Assembly: GCA_020628175.1 (NCBI GenBank)
Contig: JAHDFK010000004.1
Location: forward strand, 71,775 to 135,774
DNA length: 64,000 nucleotides
Direction: 5' to 3'
Source of the DNA: Wenyingzhuangia sp.
GTDB taxonomy: Bacteria; Bacteroidota; Bacteroidia; Flavobacteriales; Flavobacteriaceae
Positions 3,632-62,977 of this stretch are shown in pieces (position 1 is the first letter of the stretch; the number at the start of each line of letters is the position of its first letter). The position numbers were made by a program, and so were the translations under genes. The notes under the pieces were generated by a model. The model had not been told where the DNA came from and did no database searches. It was given only the letters and a program-made list of their open reading frames with translations.

Positions 3632-3655
3632 TTTTTAAAGCATTTCTAAAAGTAT

Positions 3656-3685
3656 ATAAAGGCTACCTAGATAGGTAGCCTTTAT
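3656..3685 (+). terminator. Intrinsic terminator after the first beta-helix gene
   Basis: A perfect 13-bp stem (ATAAAGGCTACCT paired with AGGTAGCCTTTAT) closes an AGAT loop 25 bases after the stop codon. It separates the two paralogues into different transcription units. Confidence 0.85.
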
Positions 3686-3966
3686 TGTTGTTTTCTATTT
3701 TACAAAAGTCAAAATACTGTTTTACAAACACTTAACTAACATACTATAACAAAAAACACAAACCAACAAACGAGGTTTTCTTTTACAGCATTGATAAACA
3801 AATATTAATTTTAATACAAATAATTCAAAAAAATAACTAAAAAAATTAATAATCCTCAATAAAAACCCTTATTAATACATTATTTTTAATTAATTTAACT
3901 GCACACTAACAAATTAATAAATAATTAAAAATGAGTAAACTCAAATCTTTACCCCCTACGAAGAAA

Positions 3967-42207: not shown

Positions 42208-42764
42208 AAAAAAAGGGTCTGCTAAGTATTAGTAGACCCTTTTTTTATTTTTTAGAAAGTGTAATTACTCTAGATATATCTTTTTGGTAAAGCTTTCTGT
42301 ATTGGTAACAACTTTTACAATATAGAAATTGTTAGACAATCCATTTGTTTTTACTACCGAATGGTTCGTCTCTTTTGTTTCTTTATAACTTAACAACGTA
42401 CTTCCTGTTAAACTATAAACTTCTATTTTCTCTATAGCTCCTTTTTCTAAAGTAACTTCTAATTCATTATTTGTGAAACTTACTACGTTCTTAACTCCTT
42501 CTGTAAGTATAGCGTCGTTACTTAAAGTGTCTTCTCCTTTAAATACCAAACTAAATCTATCACTTGTTTCTCCAGAAGTTACAAATGCTGTATACATATC
42601 TTCTTTTATATTATTTACTGTATTTTCTACTTTATCGTATACATAAACAGAACCCGTATAATCTTCTACACCATCCAATGTAAAGGTTATTTCTCTATCT
42701 GTATCTACAACAACTCCTATAGGTAATTCTAAATCATCACTCGCTGCCGGTACACTTGTGATTA
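42206..42764. repeat. Near-identical 3' end repeat, copy 1 (about 559 bp)
   Basis: This stretch covers the terminator and last ~165 codons of the first giant gene and matches 47737-48296 at the end of the second. I compared them line by line: one T-run length difference (7 vs 8) and one base change at 42273/47805, then identity through 42764, after which the genes diverge at once. The unit is in direct orientation, 5.5 kb apart. Confidence 0.9.
42207..42246 (-). terminator. Terminator of the first giant T9SS gene
   Basis: Stem GGGTCTGCTAA / TTAGTAGACCC (one wobble or mismatch) flanked by A8 and T7 runs, 19 bases beyond the stop. Duplicated after the second giant gene. Confidence 0.85.
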
Positions 42765-45700
42765 CAAATCTATCTTCTTCTCCTGGTACAATCCAGTAAG
42801 CATCGTTGTTGTAATAATCAAACATAAAAGCATCTTTCCCTACTTCCTTAGCCATTGAACTTCCATCTAAAGCTGTTGCTAATTGACGGTGGTACACTTT
42901 TCCCTCTGAATTTGTATACCCAAATCCTAAACGGATAATTGGACGGATTGTTTTCGTTTTATTGGTTTTAAAGAAATGACGAGAAGGATCGAAAGCCACT
43001 CCACTACGCAAACTGTTCTCAAACTGAACATCTCCTGTGGCATCTCCATAAACTACAAATCCTTGTCCTGGCTTTAAATAACCTGATGGCGTTGTTGCGT
43101 CTGTTACTCCTGTTACTTCATCTTCTAAAGTTGCTGCTGCTACTGTCATTCCTGCTCCTATCGTTGCGTATCCTCCACTATTATCTGTAACTGCTGGGAA
43201 ATGCTCATCTCCTATAGGTTGATCCCATACATAAATAATTCCTTCTGTTACTCCTGAATTTAAGGTGTTAAATGCATGACCATCTATCGTTGATGGATAT
43301 GGATTTCCTGTTAACAAGAAATTTCCTGAGGTTAAAGGTACCGTAATGTCTCCGTTATTTGGACTCCCTATAAAGTTATAGTTGTTTAACGTTCCTGTTC
43401 CTTTCATCGTAAACCCTACTCCTGGGTTCATTGTAGTTGCTTCTGTAATTTCTAAAAAGGCAAAATCGTTATTCATCGTATGCGTCCAACGCGTACTTAA
43501 TGTGTTAGCAGAACCATCTAAATCTCTTGTAAAACTAGGATCTGTATTATCTCCTAAAGTAGCTCCTGTATTAAACTTTAAATTGTTTGTTAAACTAAAG
43601 CTTCCTGAAGTTTGTACTGGAGATGCAAAATAGTTGTAACGGTAAGGTGAATCTGTAGCTTCTCCTAAAACCTTATAAATATTTCCTGTTCCCGTATTTT
43701 CATTCACTCCTACTGAGTTCTGAATCAGTTCTGCTTCTCCTTCTAAATAAATATCTCCATTTAATACCAAATCTGTTGTACTTGCATATTTATCTTCAGA
43801 TAATGTAAATGTTACGCCTGCATCAACATTTAAACATGTACATTCAAAACTTTCTCCTGACACCAATGTAAAAGTTAAATCATCTTTTATAATAAATCTT
43901 TTAGCATCGTCATCTATATTAGCAACACCTCCTGGACCTGATCCTCCAGACCATCCTCCTTCTGAGATGTCAAAAACAATTTCATATCCATCTTTTCTTA
44001 TCAAGGTAAATACAACGCCATCTGGTAGTGTTACACCACTAAAACTTAAGTCTGTTCCACTTGCTGGTACAGGTGTTATTGTTGTTTGATCTCCTGTAGT
44101 CGTAAAATCTCCATCAACATCTATCAATAAATCAAAATCTTGAGGCTCTAAGATATCAGTCATATCAAAAGATAAACTTACAGTACCTACACTTCCTGTG
44201 TTTTGAACTTTCCAATCTCTATTTACTTTTAAAATTGGTAATCCACACTCTATTCCAAAAACTGTCCCAGATGATTTTGATCCCCAAGCTAAAAAGTCTA
44301 AATCGTCATCAAAACTAGAACTATTCAATGCATTGGTAGCTGCTATACTTCCTAATCCAACAGTTAATACACTGTTTTCACTTCCTGATTTTGATTGTTT
44401 TTGATTCAATCCTGAAGCATCATCTTGACCTATAACCCCAACACGTTCGTAGTAATCTGCATTGATTGTTTTGTCCCAAATTACGGTAGTTCCATCACTC
44501 GCTATATAATTTATAGAACTATCTAATGTAATACCATATTTACTTGCTAAATAACTATTGATCTTATTTCTGTCTGAATCTGATAAATTACTAGAATATG
44601 AAATTATTTCGGCTATTTGTCCTGTAATACCTCTAGAATTATAGATTCCTCTATCTGCACCAATAGTATAACTTGTATTTGTTGTTTCGTTTGTTACTAA
44701 AACTTTTGTGTGTACTTCTGTTCTAACCGGTCTTGCGTGTGTTAATAAATCTGTTGTAGTTCCATTTACATACGAAGTTCCATTTTTCGTATTGTTAGGT
44801 GTCCATATGCTACTGTACACTTGTGTTTCGTCTTCATGACCGTGAAAAACACCTGCTCCATTGTTATTTGTAAAAGGAGTTTCCCAACTTCTGACAGACG
44901 TATGGTTGTATACAATAAAAACAGTTTTTACATCTAAATTACCACTTATTGTTAAAGCATCATTTCCGTTAAAATCAATAGAGGGATTGAAGTTAATTCC
45001 ACTATCATTTAACTGAGGGTTATCATTCGCAGTAACAAAATCAAAAGAATTATGAGAATCTTGCCATTGAGAGACATCCGAACCAGAAGTAACAACATTA
45101 TTATCTGCTCTTAACCATAAACTTAAATTCGTAGTATCAACATCTCCAGGTCCAGAAATAGTTCTATCGTAAGCTAATGTAAAATAACCATCAGCATTAA
45201 GGTTTACATTATTAAAAGTAAGAGTATTTCCAACCAATGAAACGTTTTCTGTTTGAATCGTAGCATCTGAGAAATCAGTATCTGTATCTATTAGTAATGC
45301 GTAATCAAAATCTAATCCTGTGTTAGGAACTCCAGATCCTAAGGTAAAACTAACATTTACGGTACCTGGTGTACCTGTAGTTTGAGTTCTCCATACTCTA
45401 CCTACTATATTCTTGTAGTTATTTATCGTAGAAGTTGGTACAACAGACTCACTTGCTCCGTTATTAGCAATCATAACAAATTGATCATCTCCTGTAAAAG
45501 CAATTTCTTTTTCTATAACAACACCTAAAGTAGTATTTTGTTCCTGAGATTTAATTTGTGACAATGCTGATTGATCATCTCTACCGATACCTATTATATT
45601 TGTTTCATATCCTACTGTATTATTCCAAATAATTTGATCATCACTATCTCTATAATTCCCTGATGTTATTCCATCAGTACTACTTAGCGTAATACCATAC

Positions 45701-47598
45701 TTGATCGCTAAATAAGAATAAATTTTTCTTAAATCGGTGTTTGTAAGTGTTTGGTTGTAAATGATTACCTCAGAAACATATCCATTGAATCCGTCTGAAG
45801 CTGATCCTTTACCTAAAACACCTGTATGATCTCCAGTTAAGAAAGAATTCACCAAATCAGTACTCTCAGTATACGCACCATCTCTTAATTCAGAAACTAG
45901 CTTTCCTGAAGCACTATCTAAACTACCTCGCACCAATGCAATAGAATTGATTGGTGTATTAAAATTATTTACAGAAGTAGTCAATGAATTTGAAAATTGA
46001 TCTAACTCTAGTGAATTATCTAGGTTGTATCCAAAATCTAATGCATTATTACTTGAAGAACCTTCTGTACCTAATAAAAAGTTATCTGTATCACTACCAT
46101 CTCTCTCAACGATTGCTATAATATTATAATTACTATCGTTAATAGCATCAAGATCTAAGTTAAAATAACCATTATCACCATTTTCAAAATAAACAGATGG
46201 GTTAAAGTTATGTTGATTTTCGCTAAGCACAGGAAAATTACTTGTACCAGATTGCGAAGCATTTAAACTTGATACTGAATTGTTCCATTGAGTAATAACT
46301 TCCCCGTCAATAGTTGCAGATGTACTTGCACCTTTGTACCAATGTGTAATTCCTGAAGAAACATTTCCAGGAGTAAAAATAGCAGACTTTAATCCTACTG
46401 TAAATATTTGACCATCTGTAAAGTTTACAGCATCGAAGTTTAACAAAGTACCTCCTGTTATTGAAGTTGCATCAATTACAGTAGCATCTGAAAAATTTGT
46501 ATCATTATCTAAAATTAAAACATAATCACTAGCATTTCCAGTATCCGGAATTCCAGTTCCCAACTCAAATGAAACTGTTACGGAACCAGGAGTACCATTT
46601 GTCTCAACTTTCCACAAACGTTCTAAACTAGATATAACTCCAGTAGGTAAATTAGATGACGAATATGTTGTTGATAAGTTATTGTTTCCAAATAACAAAT
46701 AATCTAAATCGCTTGTAAATGTAGCACCTTTATCAACCGTCAAAATAGGTTCATCTATTGAACTAACACCAACTGTATCTTCATAATCTGCATTATTATC
46801 TCTACCATAGTGAAGTCTATTGTTATTAAAATCTATATTTTCTGAAGCATCCCAAATTAAACTACCATCACTCAAAACATAATCTCCACTCGTTCCTCCA
46901 GATGTGTTTTCTAATTCAACACCATACTTTCTTGATAAATAGGTTTCTACTTTTAATCTATCTGTTTCAGATAGCTCCGTACTGTAAGCTATTATTTCTG
47001 AAATTTGTCCTGTAATACTTCTCGTTGAAAACGTTCTATCTCTACCTACATAATAAGTCGACGTAGTATTATCATTGGCTGTCAAAATTCTAGAATGTAT
47101 TTCAACTGTTTTGGGTCTTGGATGAGCTAACAAGTCAACCACACTACCATTTACAAAAGAACTTCCGTTTTTGGTTGCAGTTGGTGTCCATACATCACTA
47201 TACACAGTTGTATCGTCTATTTGACCGTGAAAAATACCCGCTCCGTTATTATTTGTAAATGGAACTTCCCAAGGCCTAACTGAAGTATGTTGATATACAA
47301 TAAAGAATGTTCTAATATCTAAATTTGTAGTCGCTAATTGTAAATGTGAACTTCCATCAAATACAATAGAACTTTGATTATTAATCCCTGTTAAATCTAA
47401 TGTGGGTGTTCCTGAAGCTGTATTAAATACATATCCATTTGTAGATTGGTCTGTCCAACTTGTAACACTTCCCCCGGATACAGCAACACCTGTATCTGCT
47501 TTTAACCACAAATTTAAATTTGAAGATACATTTGCCGGTCCTTGTGCATAGGAACAAATTGAAATTACTAATAAAACGATTTTAAGAAAATTCTTCAT
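42265..47598 (-). CDS. Giant LamG-like T9SS-secreted protein (1777 aa)
   Basis: 1777 aa. Signal peptide (MKNFLKIVLLVISICSYAQ), then three repeated units of about 400 residues, starting near 25 (NLNLWLKADTGV), 416 (ITHWYKGASTS) and 826 (NLSLWLRADNNV). Each is a concanavalin-like sandwich ending in YL..KYGI followed by a segment such as SGNYRDSDDQIIWNNTVGY, as in LamG/DUF8202 proteins. From about 1212 (GGWSGGSGPGG) comes a region shared with its neighbour, ending in a T9SS sorting domain (residues about 1700-1777). A cell-surface adhesin or glycan-binding role is inferred. A -7 element lies upstream. Confidence 0.82.
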   Translation of the reverse strand: MKNFLKIVLLVISICSYAQGPANVSSNLNLWLKADTGVAVSGGSVTSWTDQSTNGYVFNTASGTPTLDLTGINNQSSIVFDGSSHLQLATTNLDIRTFFIVYQHTSVRPWEVPFTNNNGAGIFHGQIDDTTVYSDVWTPTATKNGSSFVNGSVVDLLAHPRPKTVEIHSRILTANDNTTSTYYVGRDRTFSTRSITGQISEIIAYSTELSETDRLKVETYLSRKYGVELENTSGGTSGDYVLSDGSLIWDASENIDFNNNRLHYGRDNNADYEDTVGVSSIDEPILTVDKGATFTSDLDYLLFGNNNLSTTYSSSNLPTGVISSLERLWKVETNGTPGSVTVSFELGTGIPDTGNASDYVLILDNDTNFSDATVIDATSITGGTLLNFDAVNFTDGQIFTVGLKSAIFTPGNVSSGITHWYKGASTSATIDGEVITQWNNSVSSLNASQSGTSNFPVLSENQHNFNPSVYFENGDNGYFNLDLDAINDSNYNIIAIVERDGSDTDNFLLGTEGSSSNNALDFGYNLDNSLELDQFSNSLTTSVNNFNTPINSIALVRGSLDSASGKLVSELRDGAYTESTDLVNSFLTGDHTGVLGKGSASDGFNGYVSEVIIYNQTLTNTDLRKIYSYLAIKYGITLSSTDGITSGNYRDSDDQIIWNNTVGYETNIIGIGRDDQSALSQIKSQEQNTTLGVVIEKEIAFTGDDQFVMIANNGASESVVPTSTINNYKNIVGRVWRTQTTGTPGTVNVSFTLGSGVPNTGLDFDYALLIDTDTDFSDATIQTENVSLVGNTLTFNNVNLNADGYFTLAYDRTISGPGDVDTTNLSLWLRADNNVVTSGSDVSQWQDSHNSFDFVTANDNPQLNDSGINFNPSIDFNGNDALTISGNLDVKTVFIVYNHTSVRSWETPFTNNNGAGVFHGHEDETQVYSSIWTPNNTKNGTSYVNGTTTDLLTHARPVRTEVHTKVLVTNETTNTSYTIGADRGIYNSRGITGQIAEIISYSSNLSDSDRNKINSYLASKYGITLDSSINYIASDGTTVIWDKTINADYYERVGVIGQDDASGLNQKQSKSGSENSVLTVGLGSIAATNALNSSSFDDDLDFLAWGSKSSGTVFGIECGLPILKVNRDWKVQNTGSVGTVSLSFDMTDILEPQDFDLLIDVDGDFTTTGDQTTITPVPASGTDLSFSGVTLPDGVVFTLIRKDGYEIVFDISEGGWSGGSGPGGVANIDDDAKRFIIKDDLTFTLVSGESFECTCLNVDAGVTFTLSEDKYASTTDLVLNGDIYLEGEAELIQNSVGVNENTGTGNIYKVLGEATDSPYRYNYFASPVQTSGSFSLTNNLKFNTGATLGDNTDPSFTRDLDGSANTLSTRWTHTMNNDFAFLEITEATTMNPGVGFTMKGTGTLNNYNFIGSPNNGDITVPLTSGNFLLTGNPYPSTIDGHAFNTLNSGVTEGIIYVWDQPIGDEHFPAVTDNSGGYATIGAGMTVAAATLEDEVTGVTDATTPSGYLKPGQGFVVYGDATGDVQFENSLRSGVAFDPSRHFFKTNKTKTIRPIIRLGFGYTNSEGKVYHRQLATALDGSSMAKEVGKDAFMFDYYNNDAYWIVPGEEDRFVITSVPAASDDLELPIGVVVDTDREITFTLDGVEDYTGSVYVYDKVENTVNNIKEDMYTAFVTSGETSDRFSLVFKGEDTLSNDAILTEGVKNVVSFTNNELEVTLEKGAIEKIEVYSLTGSTLLSYKETKETNHSVVKTNGLSNNFYIVKVVTNTESFTKKIYLE

Positions 47599-47622
47599 TC
47601 TGTTTATTTATTTTTTCAATTA

Positions 47623-47630
47623 CAAAAGTA
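47623..47630 (-). promoter_or_regulatory. -7 promoter element of the first giant gene
   Basis: The reverse strand reads TACTTTTG, 25 bases before the ATG at 47598. It lies downstream of the terminator of the other giant gene, so the two are separate units. Confidence 0.45.
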
Positions 47631-47736
47631 ATTCTTTTTAAACAAAAAAAACTAACTAAATCTTGATTATACAATATATGTTAACAATAATTTTATTAGA
47701 CTAAAAATACACAAGTATGTTAATTATTGTAAAAAA

Positions 47737-48296
47737 TAAAAAAAAGGGTCTGCTAAGTATTAGTAGACCCTTTTTTTTATTTTTTAGAAAGTGTAATTAC
47801 TCTACATATATCTTTTTGGTAAAGCTTTCTGTATTGGTAACAACTTTTACAATATAGAAATTGTTAGACAATCCATTTGTTTTTACTACCGAATGGTTCG
47901 TCTCTTTTGTTTCTTTATAACTTAACAACGTACTTCCTGTTAAACTATAAACTTCTATTTTCTCTATAGCTCCTTTTTCTAAAGTAACTTCTAATTCATT
48001 ATTTGTGAAACTTACTACGTTCTTAACTCCTTCTGTAAGTATAGCGTCGTTACTTAAAGTGTCTTCTCCTTTAAATACCAAACTAAATCTATCACTTGTT
48101 TCTCCAGAAGTTACAAATGCTGTATACATATCTTCTTTTATATTATTTACTGTATTTTCTACTTTATCGTATACATAAACAGAACCCGTATAATCTTCTA
48201 CACCATCCAATGTAAAGGTTATTTCTCTATCTGTATCTACAACAACTCCTATAGGTAATTCTAAATCATCACTCGCTGCCGGTACACTTGTGATTA
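47737..48296. repeat. Near-identical 3' end repeat, copy 2
   Basis: Partner of 42206-42764 (see there): terminator plus the last ~165 codons of the second giant gene. The protein ends KKIYVE here against KKIYLE in the other copy. Confidence 0.9.
47738..47778 (-). terminator. Terminator of the second giant T9SS gene
   Basis: The same hairpin as at 42207-42246, with an 8-base T run, 19 bases beyond the stop codon. Confidence 0.85.
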
Positions 48297-51200
48297 TAAA
48301 TCTATCTTCTTCACCTTCAATAACCCAGTAAGCATCGTTGTTAAAGTAATCAAACATAAATGCGTCTTTTCCTACTTCTTTAGCCATAGAGCTTCCGTCT
48401 AATGCAGTTGCTAATTGACGGTGATATACTTTACCATTACCAAGCTTAAATTCAAAACCTAAACGAATAATTGGACGAATTGTCTTAATTTCATTTGTTT
48501 TGAAAAAATGCCTTGCCCCATCATACTCTGCTCCAGAAACTCTTAAAGAGTTGTCAAATTTCACATCTCCATCTGCTGTAGCATATACAATAAATCCTTG
48601 ACCTGGACGTAGGTATTCTGTTGGCGTTGTCGCTCCAGATACTCCTGTAGTTTCATCTTCTAAAGTAGCTGCTCCTACTGTCATTCCTGCCCCAATTGTA
48701 GCATATCCTCCACTATTGTCGGTTAATGCTGGAAAGTGTTCACTTCCCCCTGGTTGATCCCACAAATAAATAATACCTTCTGTAACTCCTGATCCCCCTG
48801 TGTTTAATGTATTAAAGTCATGTGCATTAATTGTTGATGGATATAAGTTACCTGTCAACAAGAAATTTCCTGTAGTTACAGGTACAGTTATGTCTCCATT
48901 ATTAGGATTCCCGATAAAGTTGTATTTGTTTTTAGGGTCTAATGCGGCAACTCCTGTTCCTTTCATGGTATAACCAACTCCAGGATTCATAGACTCATTT
49001 TCATCTACTTCGGTAAACTGAATTGCATTATTCATTGTATGTAACCAACGTCTACTAATCGTTGTTCCAGACCCATCTAAATCATTTGTGTAAGTAAAAT
49101 CCGTATTATCATCCAACGTAGCGCCTGTATTTAACTTTAAATTATTTATTAAAGAGAAACTACCCGAAGTATTTACAACAGAAGCAAAATAGTTATATCT
49201 AAATTCAGATCTTGTTGCATCATCTAAAATTTTATGAATAGTACCTGTACCTGTATTTGTATTTACTCCTGTAGATTTCTGAATTAACTCAGAATCTCCT
49301 TCTAAATAAATATCTCCATCTAACTCTAATAAACCTTCAACTCTTAAATATGAATTTGTAGGTACTGTTACAACAGCATCTGTAGCAACACTTAAACACT
49401 GACAGTTTGCATTTTGAGTTAACGACACACTATCTTCTATAGAAACAGATTTTGCAAAATCACTTGTATTTGGTGAACCATCAGGTGCAGAACCACCAGA
49501 CCATGTACCTCCTGCATATGATATTTGAGATTGTGCCGTTTTAGTTCTTAACGTAAATACAGCTCCATTTGGTAAATTAACACTTGAAAAAACTAAGTTA
49601 TCATCTGTTAAAACACCTGTAGTTATAGGAGTAACTCCTGTATAATCACCATCTCCATCGGTATCAATCAATAAATCAAAATTATTTTCGTTAGATATTG
49701 TAGACATATCAAATGACACAGAAACTGTTCCTACACTACCAATATTAACTACTTTCCAATCTCTATCTAATCTTCTAAATACTTGAGGACAAGTTCCTGT
49801 AGGCGCACCATCATCTATTAAAGAAGGTATTGCATCAGTACCATTGTTTCCCCATAATAAATAATCTTTATCATCATCAAAATCAGTTGTATTGTCAACA
49901 TTCGAAGCTTCTACAGTTGCTCCTAATGCTACTGTAACAATTCCTCCTTCAGCTTCAGATCTTGATTGTTTTTGTAACAAAGCAGTATCTTCATCAGCAC
50001 CAATACCAGCTACATTTCGATGAAATGCTGCATTTGCTACCGCATCCCATAAAACACTTCCACTACTATCCACGTAGTTACCGTTTAAACCTCCTGCAGA
50101 ATTATCTAATGTAATTCCATATTTAATAGCTAAATAACTTTCAATTCTTCTAATTTCTGCATCAGGAATAGTTTGTCCTTGAAAGTATATTATTTCAGAA
50201 ATATTTCCTTCATAATAATCTTCACTAGAACCTCCATCAAATGTAGCAGCTAAAGAAGCATCTCCCACATATCCATATCTTGTTACACCTGTACCAATAT
50301 TAGAATTATTTACATCTCCTGTAAAATCGTCCGCACCATTTGATCTTATAAAGGTGTCATTTGCACCCGTACTTGCATCAAAAATAAAACCTGCAATATT
50401 GGTTCTTCCGTTATTATTTACACTTGTACCTGTAGAGGTATATTCTATACCAAAACCTGCTCCTTCTGTATATGAGAATCCTAATTTACCATCTCCACCA
50501 ATGTATGTTCCAAAATATTTAGAACTATCAAAGTCTAAAAATGCTCTATTACTTGTATCAGGAGTACCCGATGGGGTTGAACTATGATCTGTTTTATATA
50601 CCACCCACGTATATAATTTATCTATTTCACCAGCCGAGCTAAAATTTAAACTTTCAACAGCAAAATGTTGTCTAACACCATCAAAAGACATGGTAGGGTT
50701 GTAATTAGTCATATCAGTATCATCCGTTGGCTTGTCTAAGTTTGTACTTTGAACAACTCCATTTCCATTAAAACTTTCATCTGTTACCGAAGAAATAATA
50801 CCACTTGTACTTGTTACACCTTTGTCTGCACGTACCCACATATTTAAACCAAAGCCTGCATTAACTGCACCTGGTGTTGGTTGTTCAGGTAATAGTAAAG
50901 TATATGCTAATCTTTCACCATCTAACATATCTCTAGAAAAATAATAATTTGTTCCATCATCGGTTAAGGTTACTTTTGTATCAGAATTATCAAATACGTC
51001 ATCAGTACTAATTATTGCTTCAATAGATATTAAGTCATCTGGAAAAAATGATTTCGGAATAGCAACAAATACAGTTCCTGTGTTTCCTCCTGTTTCTGTA
51101 AATAACCACTGTCTAGATGTTAAATATTGGCTCAGAAGAGGATTGAAGTTTAAAACTCCTACTCCAGATCCGTTACTACCAAACAATAATGAGGTTCCTA

Positions 51201-53481
51201 AAGGAACTGATGTTCTAGAGGCATCAGCATTAGGCGAAGAAAAATCGTTGGTTGTTGCTACAATTAAATCTTGCGCAGATGTTGATTGTGCAACTTTTTG
51301 ATCTATATCACTATCTTCTGAATCATTTATCAAACCAGCAATACCATTCCAATAATCTGTATTGTTCCAAATAATTGCTCCTGCTGAATTTCTATAATCA
51401 AAAATAGATGGATGTAAACTTACACCATATTTTAATCCTAAATATGTTTCTATTTGTTTTGTCTCCAAATCAGAAAAACCAGTTCTATCCGCAACAATAA
51501 CTTCAGAAATTTGTCCATCATAATAAATATTATTTCTTGATCCATTTTCAGTGTTTGCTTCTGAACCATCTCCTATAAAACCATATCTTGGAGTAGTTGA
51601 TGAATTATTTCTCACTACAATATTACCAGAAGTTAAATCACTATTAAACTCTATATTACCATCAAACTTCATAAATGTTTCGTTGGTCTGACCTGAATCA
51701 AAAATAAACTCAGCAATATGCGGGATACCATCATTTCCTAACGATTCACTAAACTGATCTTTTGTTCCACTTGACTGATAAGAAAAAGCTAATTTCCCAT
51801 CAGGTCTAATAAACATATTGTAAGATTCACTTCTATCAAAATCTACCAACGCCCAGTTATCAAAATCCGGATTCGCGTCTTGCGTATCAAACTCTGTACT
51901 ATACACCACAAATCCGTGTAAATCTGTAATTACATCTGCTGCTTCGTATCTTTTATTCTCAATAGCTAAATAATCATTTGCACCATCAAAATCTAATGTT
52001 GGATTAAAGTTCATAAAAGCATCTGCCGGAGTTCTATCTGTATTAGTCTGAAACGCATTTGCTTGATTTAAACTACCATCTCTTAAATCTAACCCAGAAC
52101 CAGAGTCTATATCATCAGCCTTGATAATTAAATCAAACCTAGTCACATCAATACCTGCTAATTTTGGCACATCAAAAGCACCCGTAATAAAAGTAATTCT
52201 ATCTCCATCATTTAAATTGATAGCTCTGTATAAGTATGTCCCATCATCCATTAGAGGATATGTCGTATCAGTTCCATCAAAAACATCATCTGTACTTACA
52301 ATTAACTGAGCAGTTGTCCCTGAAGGAAATTCTGATTTAGGAAAGGCTACATACACCAACCCTGTATCGTTAGTACCTTCTTTAAACAACCATTGTTTAT
52401 TAAAAATATAGTTGTTTGGGCTACTGAATAATGTATACCCATGCTCATCATTTTCTCCAAACAATAAATAATCACCTAAAGGTAATGAGGTTCTAGACAT
52501 TGCATTGTTAGATGATGTAAAATCATCATTTGTTGCAACAATCAAACCTGTATCTCCAGATTTTGCTATTTTTTGATTGATTGCACTTGTAGTACTGTCA
52601 TTAATTAAACCTCCTACATTGTGCCAATAGTCTGTATTATCCCATAACACATCTCCTGCAGAATTCACATAATTTGTATTCGAGACATCTAAAGTAACTC
52701 CATACTTTAAAGCTAAGTACGATTCTATTCTAAGCATTTCATTTGCAGTAATTGCTCCTTTGTCAAAAAGGATAATTTCAGCAATATTACCATCATAATA
52801 AATCTCATTTTTCCCTCCATTTTCACTAGATGCTTCAGAACCGTCACCAACAAAACCGTATCTATCAGCTGTTATGGTAATATCAGAGTCTGTTCTATCA
52901 AAAGTTCTATCCAAACGACCATCAACTTTCAATCGAGTTTCATTGGTAAAAGCATTATCAAAAATAAACGTACCTATGTGAGGTTGATTATCGTTTGTTA
53001 CTTGAAAAGCTCTATTATCTCTTATATCTCCACCATCTTTATAAGACATTTGTAAAGTTCCGCTTCCAGAAACATTAATATTATAAGCATCACTCCTATC
53101 AAAATCTAAAAACGACCAGTTATCACTTGTTCCATTAGCAGAAAAACCAGTCTTGTATACTACAAAAGCATATAAGTCCTCTATTGTAGAACCCGATGCA
53201 TAATTTAATGTTTCTACAGCAAAGAAATCATCTGTACCGTCAAACGTAAAACTTTCGTTAAAGTTCATTAAATCTGTCTGACTCGCTTTTGCTGCTGCTG
53301 TAGTTTGGTAAGCATCAAAGCCGGATCCACTTCGATCTCCCCAGGTAAGCGTACCACTATCAGTTATATTACTATCCCCACTATACCAAAGACTCATATT
53401 GGTTGTTGGTACACCCCCAGGAGTTTGCGAAAACACAACAGAAGTTAGTAAAACAAAAAATAATAAAGTATTTTTTTTCAT
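47797..53481 (-). CDS. Giant LamG-like T9SS-secreted protein (1894 aa)
   Basis: 1894 aa. Signal peptide (MKKNTLLFFVLLTSVVFSQ) and three LamG/DUF8202-like units beginning near 28 (NMSLWYSGDSNI), 450 (DLIIKADDIDSG) and 877 (GLNMWVRADKGV), each followed by YLALKYGV-type and DVLWDNTDYW/AIIWNNTDYW motifs. From about 1322 (GGTWSGGSAPDG) it resembles its neighbour and ends in the same T9SS sorting domain. The units differ from those of the neighbour in sequence, whereas the tail is nearly identical. A surface adhesin or binding function is inferred; no catalytic motif seen. Confidence 0.82.
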   Translation of the reverse strand: MKKNTLLFFVLLTSVVFSQTPGGVPTTNMSLWYSGDSNITDSGTLTWGDRSGSGFDAYQTTAAAKASQTDLMNFNESFTFDGTDDFFAVETLNYASGSTIEDLYAFVVYKTGFSANGTSDNWSFLDFDRSDAYNINVSGSGTLQMSYKDGGDIRDNRAFQVTNDNQPHIGTFIFDNAFTNETRLKVDGRLDRTFDRTDSDITITADRYGFVGDGSEASSENGGKNEIYYDGNIAEIILFDKGAITANEMLRIESYLALKYGVTLDVSNTNYVNSAGDVLWDNTDYWHNVGGLINDSTTSAINQKIAKSGDTGLIVATNDDFTSSNNAMSRTSLPLGDYLLFGENDEHGYTLFSSPNNYIFNKQWLFKEGTNDTGLVYVAFPKSEFPSGTTAQLIVSTDDVFDGTDTTYPLMDDGTYLYRAINLNDGDRITFITGAFDVPKLAGIDVTRFDLIIKADDIDSGSGLDLRDGSLNQANAFQTNTDRTPADAFMNFNPTLDFDGANDYLAIENKRYEAADVITDLHGFVVYSTEFDTQDANPDFDNWALVDFDRSESYNMFIRPDGKLAFSYQSSGTKDQFSESLGNDGIPHIAEFIFDSGQTNETFMKFDGNIEFNSDLTSGNIVVRNNSSTTPRYGFIGDGSEANTENGSRNNIYYDGQISEVIVADRTGFSDLETKQIETYLGLKYGVSLHPSIFDYRNSAGAIIWNNTDYWNGIAGLINDSEDSDIDQKVAQSTSAQDLIVATTNDFSSPNADASRTSVPLGTSLLFGSNGSGVGVLNFNPLLSQYLTSRQWLFTETGGNTGTVFVAIPKSFFPDDLISIEAIISTDDVFDNSDTKVTLTDDGTNYYFSRDMLDGERLAYTLLLPEQPTPGAVNAGFGLNMWVRADKGVTSTSGIISSVTDESFNGNGVVQSTNLDKPTDDTDMTNYNPTMSFDGVRQHFAVESLNFSSAGEIDKLYTWVVYKTDHSSTPSGTPDTSNRAFLDFDSSKYFGTYIGGDGKLGFSYTEGAGFGIEYTSTGTSVNNNGRTNIAGFIFDASTGANDTFIRSNGADDFTGDVNNSNIGTGVTRYGYVGDASLAATFDGGSSEDYYEGNISEIIYFQGQTIPDAEIRRIESYLAIKYGITLDNSAGGLNGNYVDSSGSVLWDAVANAAFHRNVAGIGADEDTALLQKQSRSEAEGGIVTVALGATVEASNVDNTTDFDDDKDYLLWGNNGTDAIPSLIDDGAPTGTCPQVFRRLDRDWKVVNIGSVGTVSVSFDMSTISNENNFDLLIDTDGDGDYTGVTPITTGVLTDDNLVFSSVNLPNGAVFTLRTKTAQSQISYAGGTWSGGSAPDGSPNTSDFAKSVSIEDSVSLTQNANCQCLSVATDAVVTVPTNSYLRVEGLLELDGDIYLEGDSELIQKSTGVNTNTGTGTIHKILDDATRSEFRYNYFASVVNTSGSFSLINNLKLNTGATLDDNTDFTYTNDLDGSGTTISRRWLHTMNNAIQFTEVDENESMNPGVGYTMKGTGVAALDPKNKYNFIGNPNNGDITVPVTTGNFLLTGNLYPSTINAHDFNTLNTGGSGVTEGIIYLWDQPGGSEHFPALTDNSGGYATIGAGMTVGAATLEDETTGVSGATTPTEYLRPGQGFIVYATADGDVKFDNSLRVSGAEYDGARHFFKTNEIKTIRPIIRLGFEFKLGNGKVYHRQLATALDGSSMAKEVGKDAFMFDYFNNDAYWVIEGEEDRFIITSVPAASDDLELPIGVVVDTDREITFTLDGVEDYTGSVYVYDKVENTVNNIKEDMYTAFVTSGETSDRFSLVFKGEDTLSNDAILTEGVKNVVSFTNNELEVTLEKGAIEKIEVYSLTGSTLLSYKETKETNHSVVKTNGLSNNFYIVKVVTNTESFTKKIYVE

Positions 53482-57248: not shown

Positions 57249-57920
57249 ATGGAAATTGCACCCTTATTATTAACTTTTAAATTAGCAACCGCAACCACTA
57301 TTGTGTTGTTTTTTATTGCCATTCCTGTTTCGTACTGGTTAGTTAGCACCAAATCTAAATTAAAACCTATTATAGAAGCTACTATTAGCTTACCATTAGT
57401 ACTCCCTCCTACAGTATTGGGTTTCTATTTTTTACTACTCCTAAGTCCTAATTCATATATTGGAAGTTGGATTTTAAACACTTTTCATATTCAATTTGTA
57501 TTTTCTTTCTGGGGTTTATTGTTAGCTTCTCTTTTATACAGTTTGCCTTTTATGATACATCCTATACAGGCAGGATTGAGCTCTTTACCAAAATCGTATA
57601 CAGAAACAGCTATCTTAATGGGAAAATCTAAATCTACCATCATAAGTCGTATTTTACTACCCAACATAAAACCCGCACTTTTAACAGGAATTGTTTTAAG
57701 TTTTGCCCATACAGTTGGAGAGTTTGGTGTGGTACTTATGATTGGAGGTAACATACCTGGTAAAACCAAGGTAGCATCTATTGCTATTTACGATGAAGTT
57801 GAATCGTTAAATTACACAGCTGCAAATCAATACTCTTTTATTCTTTTAGCGCTCTCTTTTTTTATATTGATTAGTGTTTATATAACCAACGGAGGATATC
57901 TTAAAAAATTGATAAAATGA
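57249..57920 (+). CDS. modB: Molybdate ABC transporter permease ModB
   Basis: 223 aa with five or six membrane segments and the conserved EAA-like loop LPKSYTETAILMGKSKSTIISRI and GEFGVVLMIGGNIPGKTKVA, a ModB signature. It would move molybdate through the inner membrane with ModC, encoded next with a 4-base overlap. No modA (periplasmic binding protein) occurs in this window. Confidence 0.88.
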   Translation: MEIAPLLLTFKLATATTIVLFFIAIPVSYWLVSTKSKLKPIIEATISLPLVLPPTVLGFYFLLLLSPNSYIGSWILNTFHIQFVFSFWGLLLASLLYSLPFMIHPIQAGLSSLPKSYTETAILMGKSKSTIISRILLPNIKPALLTGIVLSFAHTVGEFGVVLMIGGNIPGKTKVASIAIYDEVESLNYTAANQYSFILLALSFFILISVYITNGGYLKKLIK

Positions 57921-58738
57921 TTGATTGCAACCTACAACACACTTATTTTTCCAATAAAAGAGAGTTTAACCTAAACATTAAAGCCTCTTTTAAAAAAAAT
58001 GCTATCAATATCATTTATGGTCCGTCAGGATCTGGTAAAACATCATTATTACGCTTAATTAGTGGCCTAGATAAAGCTAAAAAAGGAAGAATTACCAACG
58101 GAAAAACAAATTGGTTAAAAACAAGCTCTAAAGAGTTTTATCCTATTGCTAAAAGACAAATAGCTTACGTTTTTCAAGACTACGGCTTATTTCCAAACAT
58201 GACCGTTTTAAAAAATATTACATTTTCAAAAACAAACATCAATCAAAATCTACTTAACGATGTAATTTCAACACTAGAAATTAAACATTTATTAAATGTA
58301 AAACCCGATGAATTGTCTGGTGGCCAAAAACAACGTATAGCACTCGCTAGAGCACTACTACAAGAACCTAAACTATTACTCTTAGACGAACCTTTAAATT
58401 CTTTAGATCAGCATTTAAAAAACAAGCTACAAATCTATCTCATAAAACTACAACGCACCTACAAGTTTACCGTAATTATGGTAAGTCACAACATTGAGGA
58501 AGTTTTAAAAATATCAGATTATGTTTTTGTGATGAATCAGGGAGAAATTATTGAGCAAGGACTTGCTAACGATTTATTTTTAAACAACAAAAACAATACT
58601 TTAAGGGCAACTGTTTTAAGTATCGAAGAACAATCTGTAACAGTATTAATTGGCTCACAAAAAATAAACATTAAAAAGCAACAAATTCAAACCTCTGAAT
58701 TCGAAGTAGGTCAGCTTGTAGAAATTGGGTTTGCTTAA
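57917..58738 (+). CDS. modC: Molybdate ABC transporter ATPase ModC-like
   Basis: 273 aa. Walker A GPSGSGKTSLL near 35-45, signature LSGGQKQRIALARAL near 134-148 and Walker B LLLLDEPLNSLD near 156-167. The C-terminal 50 residues form a Mop/TOBE-type oxyanion-sensing region (VTVLIGSQKINIKKQQI). Overlaps modB by 4 bases (ATGA). ModC is the usual call; a sulfate-type CysA is less likely given the short ModB partner. Confidence 0.85.
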   Translation: MIDCNLQHTYFSNKREFNLNIKASFKKNAINIIYGPSGSGKTSLLRLISGLDKAKKGRITNGKTNWLKTSSKEFYPIAKRQIAYVFQDYGLFPNMTVLKNITFSKTNINQNLLNDVISTLEIKHLLNVKPDELSGGQKQRIALARALLQEPKLLLLDEPLNSLDQHLKNKLQIYLIKLQRTYKFTVIMVSHNIEEVLKISDYVFVMNQGEIIEQGLANDLFLNNKNNTLRATVLSIEEQSVTVLIGSQKINIKKQQIQTSEFEVGQLVEIGFA

Positions 58739-58913: not shown

Positions 58914-59273
58914 ATGAAAATTCTATTATCCATATTGCTTTGTTTTTCATTCTCTGTTCAGTCTTTTGTAACAAAGTCTGTAACTTTCAATGAAAATAAA
59001 TGTCAGATGACTATGAGTAAGAAAGAAGTTAAAACTTCACATTCTTGTTGTCATAAAATGGATAAACAAAAAAGTAAAAAAGAGAATAATTCAAAAAGTA
59101 ACTGCTGTAAAGGATTCGATATTTGTACATGTAGTTTACAATTAGTTCTTCCGCCACTTTATTTTTCTATTGATTTTCGAAAAATAGAATTCACAAAATC
59201 ATACTTTGGATACTTAGAAAGTAATTCTACCTACACTTCTTCATTTTTTCAACCACCACAGTTTGTTTCTTAA
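58914..59273 (+). CDS. Cys/His-rich small envelope protein (HYC_CC_PP-like)
   Basis: 119 aa from ATG 58914; the longer reading uses TTG at 58896. An N-terminal signal or anchor (MKILLSILLCFSFSVQSF) precedes a basic Cys/His-rich segment with HSCCHKM and SNCCKGFDICTC, then LVLPPLYF. The H-CC / CC / PP pattern recalls the Bacteroidota HYC_CC_PP small proteins, which often lie beside metal genes; this is from memory. The Cys and His cluster could bind a soft metal such as copper or zinc. First gene of a five-gene cluster. Confidence 0.75.
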   Translation: MKILLSILLCFSFSVQSFVTKSVTFNENKCQMTMSKKEVKTSHSCCHKMDKQKSKKENNSKSNCCKGFDICTCSLQLVLPPLYFSIDFRKIEFTKSYFGYLESNSTYTSSFFQPPQFVS

Positions 59274-59332
59274 TTTCATTAGACGTTACTGTTTATTCAG
59301 TCTCTATTTTTTAAGAATTTAATAAAAATCAT

Positions 59333-60097
59333 ATGCAAACTTATAAATTTAGTTTGTGGTTGATGGTGCTTGTATTTTGCAAATCTTTTGCACAAGGGCC
59401 TCCAATCACAACAGATAAACCTATTATGTTAGGCCAAGGGACAAAATTGATAAAAATCCTTATAGAACATAAAAATGAAGAAGGAATTGAAAGTACTCGA
59501 ATTCCTTTAATGTTTCATTATTTACCTACTGCTAATACTTTAGTAGCGGTTCATTTACCTTATCTTTTTGGACAAAGAAAAGGAAATGATTTTCAATCTT
59601 TAGTACCCGAGTTGGTTCTAAAGTATCAATTGTATCGAAAAGATGGAAAAGCTAAAACTTTTAGAATAGTGGCAAAAACATTACAAAAAATTCCCTTTCA
59701 AGATGTAAAAGAATTACAAGGAGATGTATTAAATGAATACCAAGGATTTTACGGATTTGTTGCAGGCTACGAAAGTATTTCTCTTGGTATTTCTAATGAA
59801 TTAGGAATTAATACTGTTGCGAATACTAAATGGAATGAATTAAGCTACAAACTTGGGGTTGGCTTACCTTTATTAGAGCCTACTTACCCTGTAAAACAAT
59901 TGAATTTATTTTTTGAAACACAGCAAAGTTATTTTTATAATGTAAAAGATAACATTCTCAAATATGCTCAAGGTATTCAATATGCAAAGGGGCACTTTAC
60001 TTTCGATATAGCTTATCAATTTCCTATTTATCAAAAAACAGAAACAGTAAATAAATTTAAGAACAACTTATTACTAGGTACTCGTTTTGTTTTTTAA
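59333..60097 (+). CDS. Outer-membrane beta-barrel-like protein
   Basis: 254 aa. Signal peptide (ends CKSFAQ), then GPPITTDKPIMLGQGTKLIKI, resembling the family of phenol-degradation MetA/transporter-type barrels. Amphipathic strands continue to the aromatic C-terminus GTRFVF, typical of an outer-membrane barrel. It follows the Cys-rich gene by 59 bases and precedes the HMA gene by 20. Likely a pore or receptor in the outer membrane; the substrate is unproven, but the neighbours bind metal. Confidence 0.72.
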   Translation: MQTYKFSLWLMVLVFCKSFAQGPPITTDKPIMLGQGTKLIKILIEHKNEEGIESTRIPLMFHYLPTANTLVAVHLPYLFGQRKGNDFQSLVPELVLKYQLYRKDGKAKTFRIVAKTLQKIPFQDVKELQGDVLNEYQGFYGFVAGYESISLGISNELGINTVANTKWNELSYKLGVGLPLLEPTYPVKQLNLFFETQQSYFYNVKDNILKYAQGIQYAKGHFTFDIAYQFPIYQKTETVNKFKNNLLLGTRFVF

Positions 60098-60117
60098 ACA
60101 TTTAAAAACTAAGAATC

Positions 60118-60720
60118 ATGAAAAATATATTTATATACATATTTATTTTATTCTCAACTGTAACTTTCGCTCAGTTAGATGAATTTAACGTAAAAGTTGA
60201 TGGACTAGGCTGTCCTTTTTGTGCTTATGGCTTAGAGAAAAAATTTAAAGAGTTAAAAGGCATCAAAAAAATAGCTATTGAAATGAAGAAAGGTGAAATG
60301 ACCTTTAGCTATCCTTCTGAAAATAAATTAACTATCGAACAAGTTAACAAACAAGTTGAGAAAGCAGGTTATACCCCTGTTCATGTATTAATTACAAGAA
60401 ATACAGGTGAGGTAGAACAATCAGTTGTAAAACAAGCTACAAAAGTAGCAGACCTACAAACTTCTGAATTTAAAACCTATGGTAATTGTGATATGTGTAA
60501 AGCTAGAATAGAAAGAGCTGCTTTATCAATTAAGGGAGTTCAATCTGTTTCATGGAATAAAGAAACTAAAATGACTAAAATTGAGGCTAGTAACGCATCC
60601 ATTATAAAAAAAGCTCAAAAAGCAATTGCAAATGCAGGTCACGATACAGAGTTATTCAGTGCTCTAAAAACTAAATATGAGAGTTTACCTCCATGTTGTT
60701 TATACAAACGTAAAAAATAA
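60118..60720 (+). CDS. Secreted double-HMA metal-binding protein
   Basis: 200 aa. Signal peptide MKNIFIYIFILFSTVTFAQ. Two heavy-metal-associated (HMA) domains: residues about 22-90 with GLGCPFCAYGLEKKF (CPFC) and about 115-185 with YGNCDMCKARIERA (CDMC). The C-terminus PPCCLYKRKK adds two more Cys. HMA CxxC pairs bind Cu(I) and similar soft metals. Export makes it a periplasmic or surface metal carrier. It lies 5 bases before the NHL gene. Confidence 0.9.
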   Translation: MKNIFIYIFILFSTVTFAQLDEFNVKVDGLGCPFCAYGLEKKFKELKGIKKIAIEMKKGEMTFSYPSENKLTIEQVNKQVEKAGYTPVHVLITRNTGEVEQSVVKQATKVADLQTSEFKTYGNCDMCKARIERAALSIKGVQSVSWNKETKMTKIEASNASIIKKAQKAIANAGHDTELFSALKTKYESLPPCCLYKRKK

Positions 60721-60725
60721 GAATC

Positions 60726-61523
60726 ATGAAAAAAGCGTTATTTACACTATTCATACTAAGCAGTTTTATTTCATGTATTTCAAAAACGGAATGGACATTC
60801 GGTAAAAAAATCAGTTTGAATGAAATTAACCCTGTAGGAATATCTATACAAAAAAATGAAATTGTACTATCAGATACAGATCACCAACGTTTAGTTTGGC
60901 TAGATTCAGAATTCAAAACAACCAAAGTTGTTGATAATTTTGATAGACCCATGCATATCGAGGGAGGTATTAATAATATTTTTATTGCGAACTATGGTAC
61001 CGACCAAATATTAAAATATAATAGCGATTTAAAACCAATAGATGTTTCTGCTAAACTAGATGCTCCTTCTGGAATTTCTGTACATGATGATAAAATCGTT
61101 ATTGCTGATTTTTATAATCACAAAGTACCTTATTATGATGGTCAGCAGTGGAAATTTATAGGAAAGAAAGGAAAAGAAGATGGAGCATTTCATTATCCTA
61201 CAGATGTACAATTTCATGGAGATAAAATTTATGTTGCTGATGCATATAATCACCGTATCCAAGTATTTGATCTGAATGGGGATTTTCTATTCAAATTTGG
61301 AGAGCAAGAAGCCATAAATGCAGCTACCGGAATTTATGTTAATAACACTAATATATTTGTAACTGATTTTGAAAACGGACGAGTTTTGATATATGATTTA
61401 GAAGGAGCTCTTCAACAAATTTTAACCGAACATATATCTTCTCCTACAGATATTATTGTTTATAATAATTGTCTTTATATTCTAAATTACAAAGAAGGAG
61501 AAATTGTTTTATACCATAACTAA
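60726..61523 (+). CDS. NHL-repeat lipoprotein
   Basis: 265 aa. A lipobox in SSFISC marks it as a lipoprotein (Cys17). The remainder is a beta-propeller of NHL-type repeats (YPTDVQFHGDKIYVADAYNH, YNHRIQVFDLNGDFLFKFG, ATGIYVNNTNIFVTDFENGR). NHL propellers bind proteins or ligands, and some are copper-dependent lyases; no such catalytic residues could be assigned. Fourth gene of the metal-type cluster; may be a surface scaffold. Confidence 0.85.
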   Translation: MKKALFTLFILSSFISCISKTEWTFGKKISLNEINPVGISIQKNEIVLSDTDHQRLVWLDSEFKTTKVVDNFDRPMHIEGGINNIFIANYGTDQILKYNSDLKPIDVSAKLDAPSGISVHDDKIVIADFYNHKVPYYDGQQWKFIGKKGKEDGAFHYPTDVQFHGDKIYVADAYNHRIQVFDLNGDFLFKFGEQEAINAATGIYVNNTNIFVTDFENGRVLIYDLEGALQQILTEHISSPTDIIVYNNCLYILNYKEGEIVLYHN

Positions 61524-61530
61524 TCATTTA

Positions 61531-61566
61531 AAACTAGGAATGAAACTAAACCTTAATTCCTAGTTT
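61531..61566 (+). terminator. Hairpin between the NHL and HMA-MauE genes
   Basis: A perfect 11-bp stem AAACTAGGAAT / ATTCCTAGTTT with a 14-base loop and no T run. It may partly terminate or stabilise the mRNA and lower expression of the last gene. Confidence 0.4.
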
Positions 61567-61583
61567 ACATATTCTTAAGAACT

Positions 61584-62294
61584 ATGAAAAAAACATATAA
61601 TTTAACAGGAATGACATGTGGTAGTTGTGAAGCTAAAGTAAAAACTTCATTACTTACTGTTTCCGGAATAACTCATGTAGAGGCTTCAAAAGATAACAAT
61701 CAGGTTGTAATAGATGTTCAAAGAAATATTACCCAAAAAGAATTACAAAGTGTGTTAGATAGTAAATATCAACTTAGAGAACATAAATATTCTAATACCG
61801 AAACGAAAAATTGGTTTAACATCTACAAACCAGTTATTTTGATTTTTATTTATATTACCATCATCACTTTATGTATAGAATATTATTTAGAAACTTTTGT
61901 TTTTAAGAGATGGTGTAGACATTTCATGTCTGGATTCTTTTTAATCTTTTCTTTTTTCAAAATGTTAAATCTAAAAGGTTTCAGTAATAGCTACCAAATG
62001 TACGATGTGATTGCTAAAAGGTTTCCTATATGGGGCACTATATATGCTTTTCTTGAGTTGATTTTAGGTATTTCCTTTCTTCTGAATATTTTTCCATTAG
62101 TAACCAATAGTATAACTTTATTAATCATGACTATCAGTATTATAGGAGTTCTTCAAACAGTTTTAAATAAGAAAAAGATTCAATGCGCGTGTCTTGGAGA
62201 TGTTTTTAATCTTCCTATGAGTACCGTTACAATAATTGAAGATGGACTTATGATAGTAATGAGTTTTATAATGTTAGTATCGAATGTTAAATAG
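61584..62294 (+). CDS. HMA-MauE/DoxX-type membrane fusion protein
   Basis: 236 aa. The N-terminal HMA domain (about 1-70) has the canonical GMTCGSCEAKVK. From about 85 come four membrane segments, with motifs RWCRHFMSGFFLIFSFFKML and CACLGDVFNLPMSTVTIIED, the MauE/DoxX-like signature. A metal-binding head fused to a redox-type membrane part suggests metal transfer at the inner membrane, perhaps with thiol exchange by the CAC cysteines. Last gene of the cluster; convergent with the pseudogene. Confidence 0.85.
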   Translation: MKKTYNLTGMTCGSCEAKVKTSLLTVSGITHVEASKDNNQVVIDVQRNITQKELQSVLDSKYQLREHKYSNTETKNWFNIYKPVILIFIYITIITLCIEYYLETFVFKRWCRHFMSGFFLIFSFFKMLNLKGFSNSYQMYDVIAKRFPIWGTIYAFLELILGISFLLNIFPLVTNSITLLIMTISIIGVLQTVLNKKKIQCACLGDVFNLPMSTVTIIEDGLMIVMSFIMLVSNVK

Positions 62295-62307: not shown

Positions 62308-62977
62308 TTAACATTCATTACCTGTTATATCACAAGATTCTCCTACTACATTTGTAAACGCTAATTGCGTTAACATATCTTTTAATTTATAATTAGAAAC
62401 TGCACCAAACAACTTAAACTTGTTTGCAATTATATACGTAGGTACCGTTGTAATTTTCTTGTTTTTCACCTCTTTTTCTTTTTCCAAAACTAAATCACGA
62501 AGTTCTTTACTATTCCAAGCCTCTTTAACCTTTGGCTGTCAGGTACGAACTTAAAAGAGTTATTAACACTGGCAGTAAGGTGAGATCGCTACCCTGAGAA
62601 AAATAAGCCTTTTGCAAAGTATGTAGAACACGTAATCCATTTCCTTTTTCTTCTGCCTTTAAAATTAGTTGATGTATTTTTAAGGTATTCGGTATTCTAG
62701 AAAATTTATCAGGGTGAATTTCTAAGTTTTCTGCAGCTGCCGCTTCAGCAACATTTTCATAAGCTTTTAAAACATTCGTAACTCCTTTGTCTTTCCAATA
62801 GGTCTCAATATCAATTCCGATTTCTGGAATAGAAGGACGTATTTGAAATGGAATTAAATTTATTGATACCCGCGTATTTGTGTTCTTAACAGCATTTAAC
62901 AAACGAGTATGTCCTACAAAACACCAAGGACATATGATATCGTAAATTAAATCTATTTGTAATATTTCGTTTTTCAT
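62308..62977 (-). pseudogene. FrnE-like DsbA oxidoreductase, one-base frameshift
   Basis: From ATG 62977 the frame gives MKNEILQIDLIYDIICPWCF (CPWC at 16-19) and follows the FrnE family for ~140 residues, then stops at TAA near 62525. Dropping one G near 62527-62529 joins it to a second open frame (VKEAWNSKELRDLVLEKEKE, TTVPTYIIANKFKL) that completes the thioredoxin fold, including the cis-Pro TVPT, and ends in CDITGNEC. The whole span is 670 bases (3n+1), fitting a single insertion. It may be a sequencing error, as no other decay is seen. Confidence 0.85.

Follow-up and report, generated by a model that had tools for sequence, protein, structure and literature searches.

A recurring Bacteroidota envelope gene block, probably for soft metal ions, in a contig of Wenyingzhuangia sp.

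To our knowledge, little is known outside Proteobacteria about how copper passes across the outer membrane or how it is then transferred inward or disposed of. The mer operon (MerT, MerP, MerTP, and MerA) combines an exported HMA carrier with an inner-membrane protein bearing cysteines, MbnP and MbnH are known from methanobactin operons, and Bufferin or Gig clusters include a small exported cysteine-rich protein and a DoxX-type membrane protein. The latter clusters constitute a copper-stress system according to two reports (PMC12452194; PMC10304878), and the copper genes of Bizionia argentinensis, as far as the available portion of their description goes, encode exported MerP-like HMA proteins, P-type ATPases, and an OprC-like TonB receptor, with no outer-membrane barrel, NHL lipoprotein, or ordered block of the kind treated here described in that portion (PMC11213822). 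The present analysis concerns five consecutive genes in a 64,000-nucleotide stretch of DNA from Wenyingzhuangia sp., a member of Flavobacteriaceae (contig JAHDFK010000004.1 of assembly GCA_020628175.1, positions 71,775 to 135,774), the whole of which is referred to as the window. Genes 1 to 5 encode, in this order, a small envelope protein, a predicted barrel, an exported double-HMA protein, an NHL-repeat lipoprotein, and an HMA-MauE membrane fusion (Table 1). From its sequences and neighbourhoods, we consider that the block is probably (a probability of roughly 0.68) a conserved Bacteroidota envelope block for soft metal ions, most likely Cu(I).

The five genes lie on a single strand with intergenic gaps of 59, 20, 5, and 60 bases, and the open reading frames (ORFs) and domain searches confirmed the places, common strand, and spacing of 5–60 bases given in a first-pass annotation of the window. 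As in the mer operon, an exported HMA carrier is accompanied by an inner-membrane protein with cysteines; by contrast, the block is without MerT or MerA and has an extra outer-membrane barrel and NHL lipoprotein, and none of the Mer models was passed by the five genes and the two genes upstream of them (best MerTP scores, 44.5 for gene 3 and 28.4 for gene 5, against 180). With the Bufferin cluster, the block has in common a small cysteine-rich protein and a DoxX-type membrane protein. It may differ from that cluster in the MNIO (DUF692) enzyme, which did not turn up when the block and the genes next to it were scanned with Pfam, although no search dedicated to MNIO was made. Genes 3, 4, and 5 belong to known protein families. 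No description of the ordered block or of the barrel family was found in the literature searches made, so that both are apparently undescribed, in agreement with the earlier statement that no described system with exactly this set was known.

Table 1. The five genes of the block, with positions in the window.
Gene and product	Position	Strand	Basis
Gene 1, small Cys/His-rich envelope protein, 119 amino acids	58914..59273	+	ORF
Gene 2, outer-membrane beta-barrel, 254 amino acids, small channel fold	59333..60097	+	predicted structure; no Pfam match above cut-off
Gene 3, exported, two HMA domains (CPFC; GNCDMC), C-terminal Cys-Cys (C193, C194)	60118..60720	+	Pfam HMA, two stretches
Gene 4, NHL-repeat beta-propeller lipoprotein, RPMH motif 74-77	60726..61523	+	Pfam NHL
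Gene 5, HMA domain fused to MauE/DoxX-type membrane part	61584..62294	+	Pfam HMA and MauE

The recurring core consists of the barrel, a CPFC-type HMA protein, and the NHL lipoprotein, usually led by a small cysteine protein of the HYC_CC_PP family. For synteny, an alignment of gene 3 was scanned against one genome per species and the best 80 of 145 relatives' loci were taken, all of which proved to be from Bacteroidota; the ORFs around them were clustered, and neighbour families were checked by models on one representative per cluster. Genes 2–4 are not a chance cluster, because their order and strand are kept: the barrel gene precedes gene 3 in 78 of the 80 loci and the NHL gene follows it in 75. 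On the same strand, an HYC-cluster gene is found in 72 loci, directly before gene 2 in 71 of them, and several of the loci with missing block genes are cut at contig ends. The median gaps are 75 bases from the HYC gene to gene 2 (71 loci), 20 between genes 2 and 3 (78 loci), and 6 between genes 3 and 4 (75 loci). Aureicoccus marinus (G006, L064) has the full order HYC, barrel, double HMA, NHL, and HMA-MauE. An independent sample that was not seeded from gene 3, namely 120 Flavobacteriaceae genomes scanned for the barrel, yielded it in 10 genomes, always adjoining a CPFC-type HMA gene, which was a full-length gene 3 in six and the CPFC half only in four (G069, G093, G112, and G128); a barrel without such a neighbour was not found among the 120. 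That genes 2–4 belong together is supported, and the independent scatter by which the first-pass annotation would have had it judged spurious was not seen for any of the 10 barrels. Full-length gene 3 is patchy, being present in 6 of the 120 Flavobacteriaceae genomes and 2 of 198 genomes of the phylum.

The proposal that all five genes form one set holds for genes 2–4, but not for gene 5, which is found near 28 of the 80 loci, nor for gene 1, whose scores set it apart from the protein usually found in that position. Gene 1 gave no match to HYC_CC_PP (NF047658, cut-off 28 bits) in NCBIfam up to an E-value of 1, whereas two relatives at the same position pass this model with 107.4 and 74.5 bits. 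Against a profile of 75 HYC-cluster proteins it scores 7.0 bits, a level reached by 2 of 1000 shuffles; of the family features (HxC, an additional Cys, CC, and a PP close to the C-terminus), its C30, C46, C64, C65, P114, and P115 align with the cluster, and the family histidine in the column of residue 28 is replaced by asparagine. Gene 1 thus appears to be a diverged member of HYC_CC_PP at best, or a stand-in. The match of gene 1 to a CopL-like model is weak (18.6 bits against a cut-off of 40 in NCBIfam), and that to Pfam EOS1 (22.1 bits, under the cut-off of 23) was regarded as chance. The HYC_CC_PP family is itself common independently of the block (108 of the 120 Flavobacteriaceae genomes). 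Separately, HYC-cluster genes lie directly 5′ of CusA-like RND pump genes in L104, L114, and L060; of these pumps, the one in L104 scores above the CusA model cut-off.

Gene 5 is an optional partner of the block. Among the 74 loci in which the gene following gene 4 is visible, it occupies that place in 19; it stands before the block in L031 and L073 and lies inside it in L042. Its MauE part (PF07291) scores 47.9 bits against a gathering threshold of 27, the AlphaFold model has a mean predicted local distance difference test (pLDDT) score of 90.1, and the residues invariant over 38 sequences include C12, C15, C201, C203, L204, and G205 (the last four within CxCLG), P211, M212, E219, M223, and M226. 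The close family is present in 8 of 118 phylum genomes at an E-value of 1e-40; 7707 of 7999 scored proteins match gene 5 at E-values up to 0.001, and both domains occur in all of the 120 matches listed. Away from the block, it is accompanied by genes for AraC-type regulators that carry a CxxC close to the N-terminus and for copper-oxidase-like, CusA-like, and P-type ATPase proteins, as judged by models on representatives only. In a quick tree of 42 sequences, in which the 12 non-block rows came from hand-chosen regions, six switches between block and non-block context are required, of which well-supported branches force three or more, and most block members belong to another main branch than gene 5 of the window. 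We know of no role for this HMA-MauE family, which recurs in copper-type loci. A second ordered module of Flavobacteriaceae contains it as well: HYC_CC_PP, HMA-MauE, a TonB-receptor-like gene, and a GNC-type HMA protein follow one another in L099, L100, L101, and L103, four of five fetched regions, and the fifth (L102) is without HMA-MauE.

The predicted structure of gene 2 is a beta-barrel, and its nearest folds among the chains compared are the COG4313 channel (4rl8) and FapF, with an identity of about 10%. The fold agrees with that of the COG4313 channel, but the sequence profile matched no chain in PDB at E-values up to 0.1. The HMA domains (PF00403) of genes 3 and 5 score 65.2 and 39.9 bits against a gathering threshold of 24.8, both carry CxxC, and these parts match CopZ, MerP, Cu-ATPase, and Zn-ATPase domains in PDB. 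The C-terminal Cys-Cys of gene 3 is invariant in an alignment of 27 sequences. Gene 3 seems to have arisen by joining two types of exported HMA domain, because its C-terminal half alone, the GNC-type HMA, accounts for most of the 90 of the 120 Flavobacteriaceae genomes matched with gene 3. The NHL repeats of gene 4 score 66.1 bits against 20 in four stretches, and C17 and the residues from R74 to H77 are each conserved in 75 of 76 sequences.

The link of the block to metals, proposed in the first-pass annotation, is supported by P-type ATPase, MbnP/MbnH, ArsP_1, HMA-MauE, and distant mer neighbours. After gene 4, the next gene in the 74 loci is HMA-MauE in 19, a P-type ATPase in 10, MbnP in 3, and ArsP_1 in 3. 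The copper P-type ATPase (CopA) is found in 10 of the 80 loci, and its one representative checked by family model scores 586 bits with TIGR01511 against a cut-off of 397. MbnP- or MbnH-like genes occur in seven loci (MbnP, Pfam score 101 against 27; MbnH-like, 250, under the cut-off of 362.85); these are separate families from those of the block and were not seen beside it in the window. The ArsP_1 permease is found in four loci (Pfam score 193 against 32; the SO_0444 Cu/Zn-efflux model gives 45, far under 300), a copper-oxidase-like gene in one (426, under the cut-off of 479), and the CusA representative scores 769 against 701. Overall, ORFs with an HMA domain or of P-type ATPases make up 41 of 406 near the block and 10 of 400 far from it (Fisher p approximately 8e-6, an optimistic value in view of the relatedness of the loci and the inclusion of gene 5 in the count). 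Furthermore, mer-like clusters contain distant barrel, CPFC-HMA, and NHL blocks in two genomes: in L105, where ArsR, MerTP (303.5 against 180), and MerA (495 against 454) pass their cut-offs, and in L106, judged by its likeness to L105. Copper is our best guess for the metal handled.

Several observations weigh against this assignment. In the same 74 loci, the next gene after gene 4 is on the opposite strand in 14 and another close gene in 17, several of them housekeeping by eye. Seven of the ten P-type ATPase loci are from Maribacter, so these loci are not independent. No counted metal gene lies near the block in 30 of the 80 loci, 8 of which have less than 3 kb to the right and one of which, L060, has a CusA-like ORF missed by the count; the count itself is biased because the neighbour families counted were named after they had been seen to recur, a bias that affects the comparison of near and far ORFs less. 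Other metals are represented among the neighbours by MerA and MerTP and by a CDF-transporter-like gene in L007 (by eye), and HMA domains are uninformative on which metal is bound. For gene 2, the putative function as a metal channel is based on its fold and its neighbourhood.

In the arrangement that we favour, gene 2 would be a small outer-membrane channel, and the double-HMA protein of gene 3 would capture periplasmic metal by means of its Cys-Cys tail and both CxxC sites, with the lipoprotein propeller of gene 4 holding or docking the gene 3 protein or its metal at the envelope and gene 1 serving as a thiol buffer. The metal would then be passed to an inner-membrane or periplasmic partner. 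This slot is putatively occupied by HMA-MauE here, and in other genomes by MbnP, a copper P-type ATPase, or a permease of the ArsP_1 type. The hand-over site of gene 5 may consist of its N-terminal HMA domain together with the CxC, Met, and Glu residues of the membrane part. We infer the identity of the metal, the order of hand-over, and the direction of the relay, which may be supply or removal. Such a block provides a compact and testable set of parts for copper handling in the Bacteroidota envelope, including a channel-like family that is unmatched in Pfam and, in the 120 genomes, is found solely beside a metal-carrier gene; many of the named carriers of the block are marine genera.

Readings of the block as an uptake or as a detoxification system are both viable. 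Detoxification of soft metals (Cu, Ag, and Hg), in which periplasmic capture would feed an efflux pump or a reductase in the way that MerP and MerT serve MerA, is quite conceivable, since the distant blocks are in mer-like clusters (L105 and L106) and in 10 loci gene 4 is immediately followed by a CopA-type ATPase. Against it, no efflux gene was recognised in the vicinity of many loci, and in 4 of the 15 gene 3-bearing genomes neither a heavy-metal P-type ATPase nor CusA was seen at the thresholds used. Acquisition, in which scarce copper would be taken up across the outer membrane for cuproenzymes and gene 5 would import or pass on Cu(I), is more doubtful. The MbnP- and MbnH-like genes, the TonB-receptor-like genes in 10 of the 80 loci, and the Flavobacteriaceae module with HMA-MauE and a TonB-receptor-like gene (L099, L100, L101, and L103) speak for it; however, export or detoxification genes are about as frequent (CopA in 10 loci, ArsP_1 in 4, copper-oxidase-like in 1, and MerA in distant relatives), seven of the TonB loci coincide with the Maribacter loci bearing the P-type ATPase, and TonB receptors as a class are not metal-specific.

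Proteins with MauE and DoxX parts have a link to redox maturation, and the block might alternatively be a thiol-redox system in which the CxC pair of the MauE/DoxX part performs disulphide chemistry, the HMA domains are redox partners, and metal is secondary. Two DsbA-like genes in the window, one immediately downstream of gene 5 on the opposite strand, a TlpA-like cluster (by eye) in 5 of the 80 loci, and a thioredoxin-like ORF (by eye) after gene 5 in L032 are consistent with this, but the redox genes stand outside the conserved order, metal genes are more frequent as neighbours, and gene 5 keeps Met and Glu residues beside CxC; we regard it as improbable. An accidental grouping of housekeeping neighbours is hardly credible: two neighbour blocks (clusters 5-9; clusters 10, 16, and 17) do recur as well, in up to 18 loci, but the order of the block is kept despite differing flanks, and in the 120 Flavobacteriaceae genomes no barrel was found away from a CPFC-HMA gene.

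The first-pass annotation had also proposed that the cluster works without the usual P-type ATPase or CusCBA pump. This agrees with what was seen in the window, where neither a DKTGT motif of P-type ATPases nor an RND-like ORF was seen among the 48 ORFs, as judged by motif and size only, the sole ORFs of more than 1000 amino acids having exported-surface-protein-like starts (by eye); likewise, Pfam and NCBIfam revealed no P-type ATPase or RND pump among seven scanned proteins (the five genes and the two upstream). It does not extend to the block at large, which is not inherently pump-free because in 10 of the 74 loci the gene immediately after gene 4 encodes a copper P-type ATPase. Fifteen genomes with gene 3 were picked by hand, 14 with the block by locus or by gene 3 and barrel scans and one (G258) on a gene 3 match alone, and four of them (G004, G006, G010, and G036), whose completeness is not stated, gave neither a heavy-metal P-type ATPase (E-value of 1e-20) nor CusA (E-value of 1e-100). 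G006, Aureicoccus marinus, is a 3.0-Mb genome with the block on a 3.05-Mb scaffold. In control genomes, the P-type ATPase model was positive in 14 of 14 and the CusA model in 5 of 14. The P-type ATPase is lacking in 2 of the 10 genomes that have the barrel and in 15 of the 110 that do not, which is no clear excess in the former. It is rather unlikely that the barrel and the CPFC-HMA carrier form a trans-envelope route for copper-like metal free of ATPase and RND pumps, with the HMA-DoxX-type protein as a new class of inner-membrane transporter.

Immediately upstream of the block (window positions 57249-58738) lie two genes of a molybdate transporter, namely ModB, which scores over the cut-off of its model, and a ModC-like gene, which falls short of its own. 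Genes resembling MoeA and MoaC (by eye) follow gene 4 in L026, and the molybdate neighbourhood is possibly a coincidence. The DsbA-like gene downstream of gene 5 (62308-62977, minus strand) is apparently broken: a DSBA-domain ORF spans 62525-62977 and an apparent tail lies at 62308-62487 in another frame (by eye), so that a pseudogene or a sequence error is possible. Elsewhere in the window, two adjoining very large ORFs of 1777 and 1894 amino acids with exported-surface-protein-like starts (by eye) occupy 42268-53481 on the minus strand, and a tandem pair of large, apparently exported proteins of 838 and 854 amino acids with similar starts (by eye) is encoded at 1115-6492 on the plus strand.

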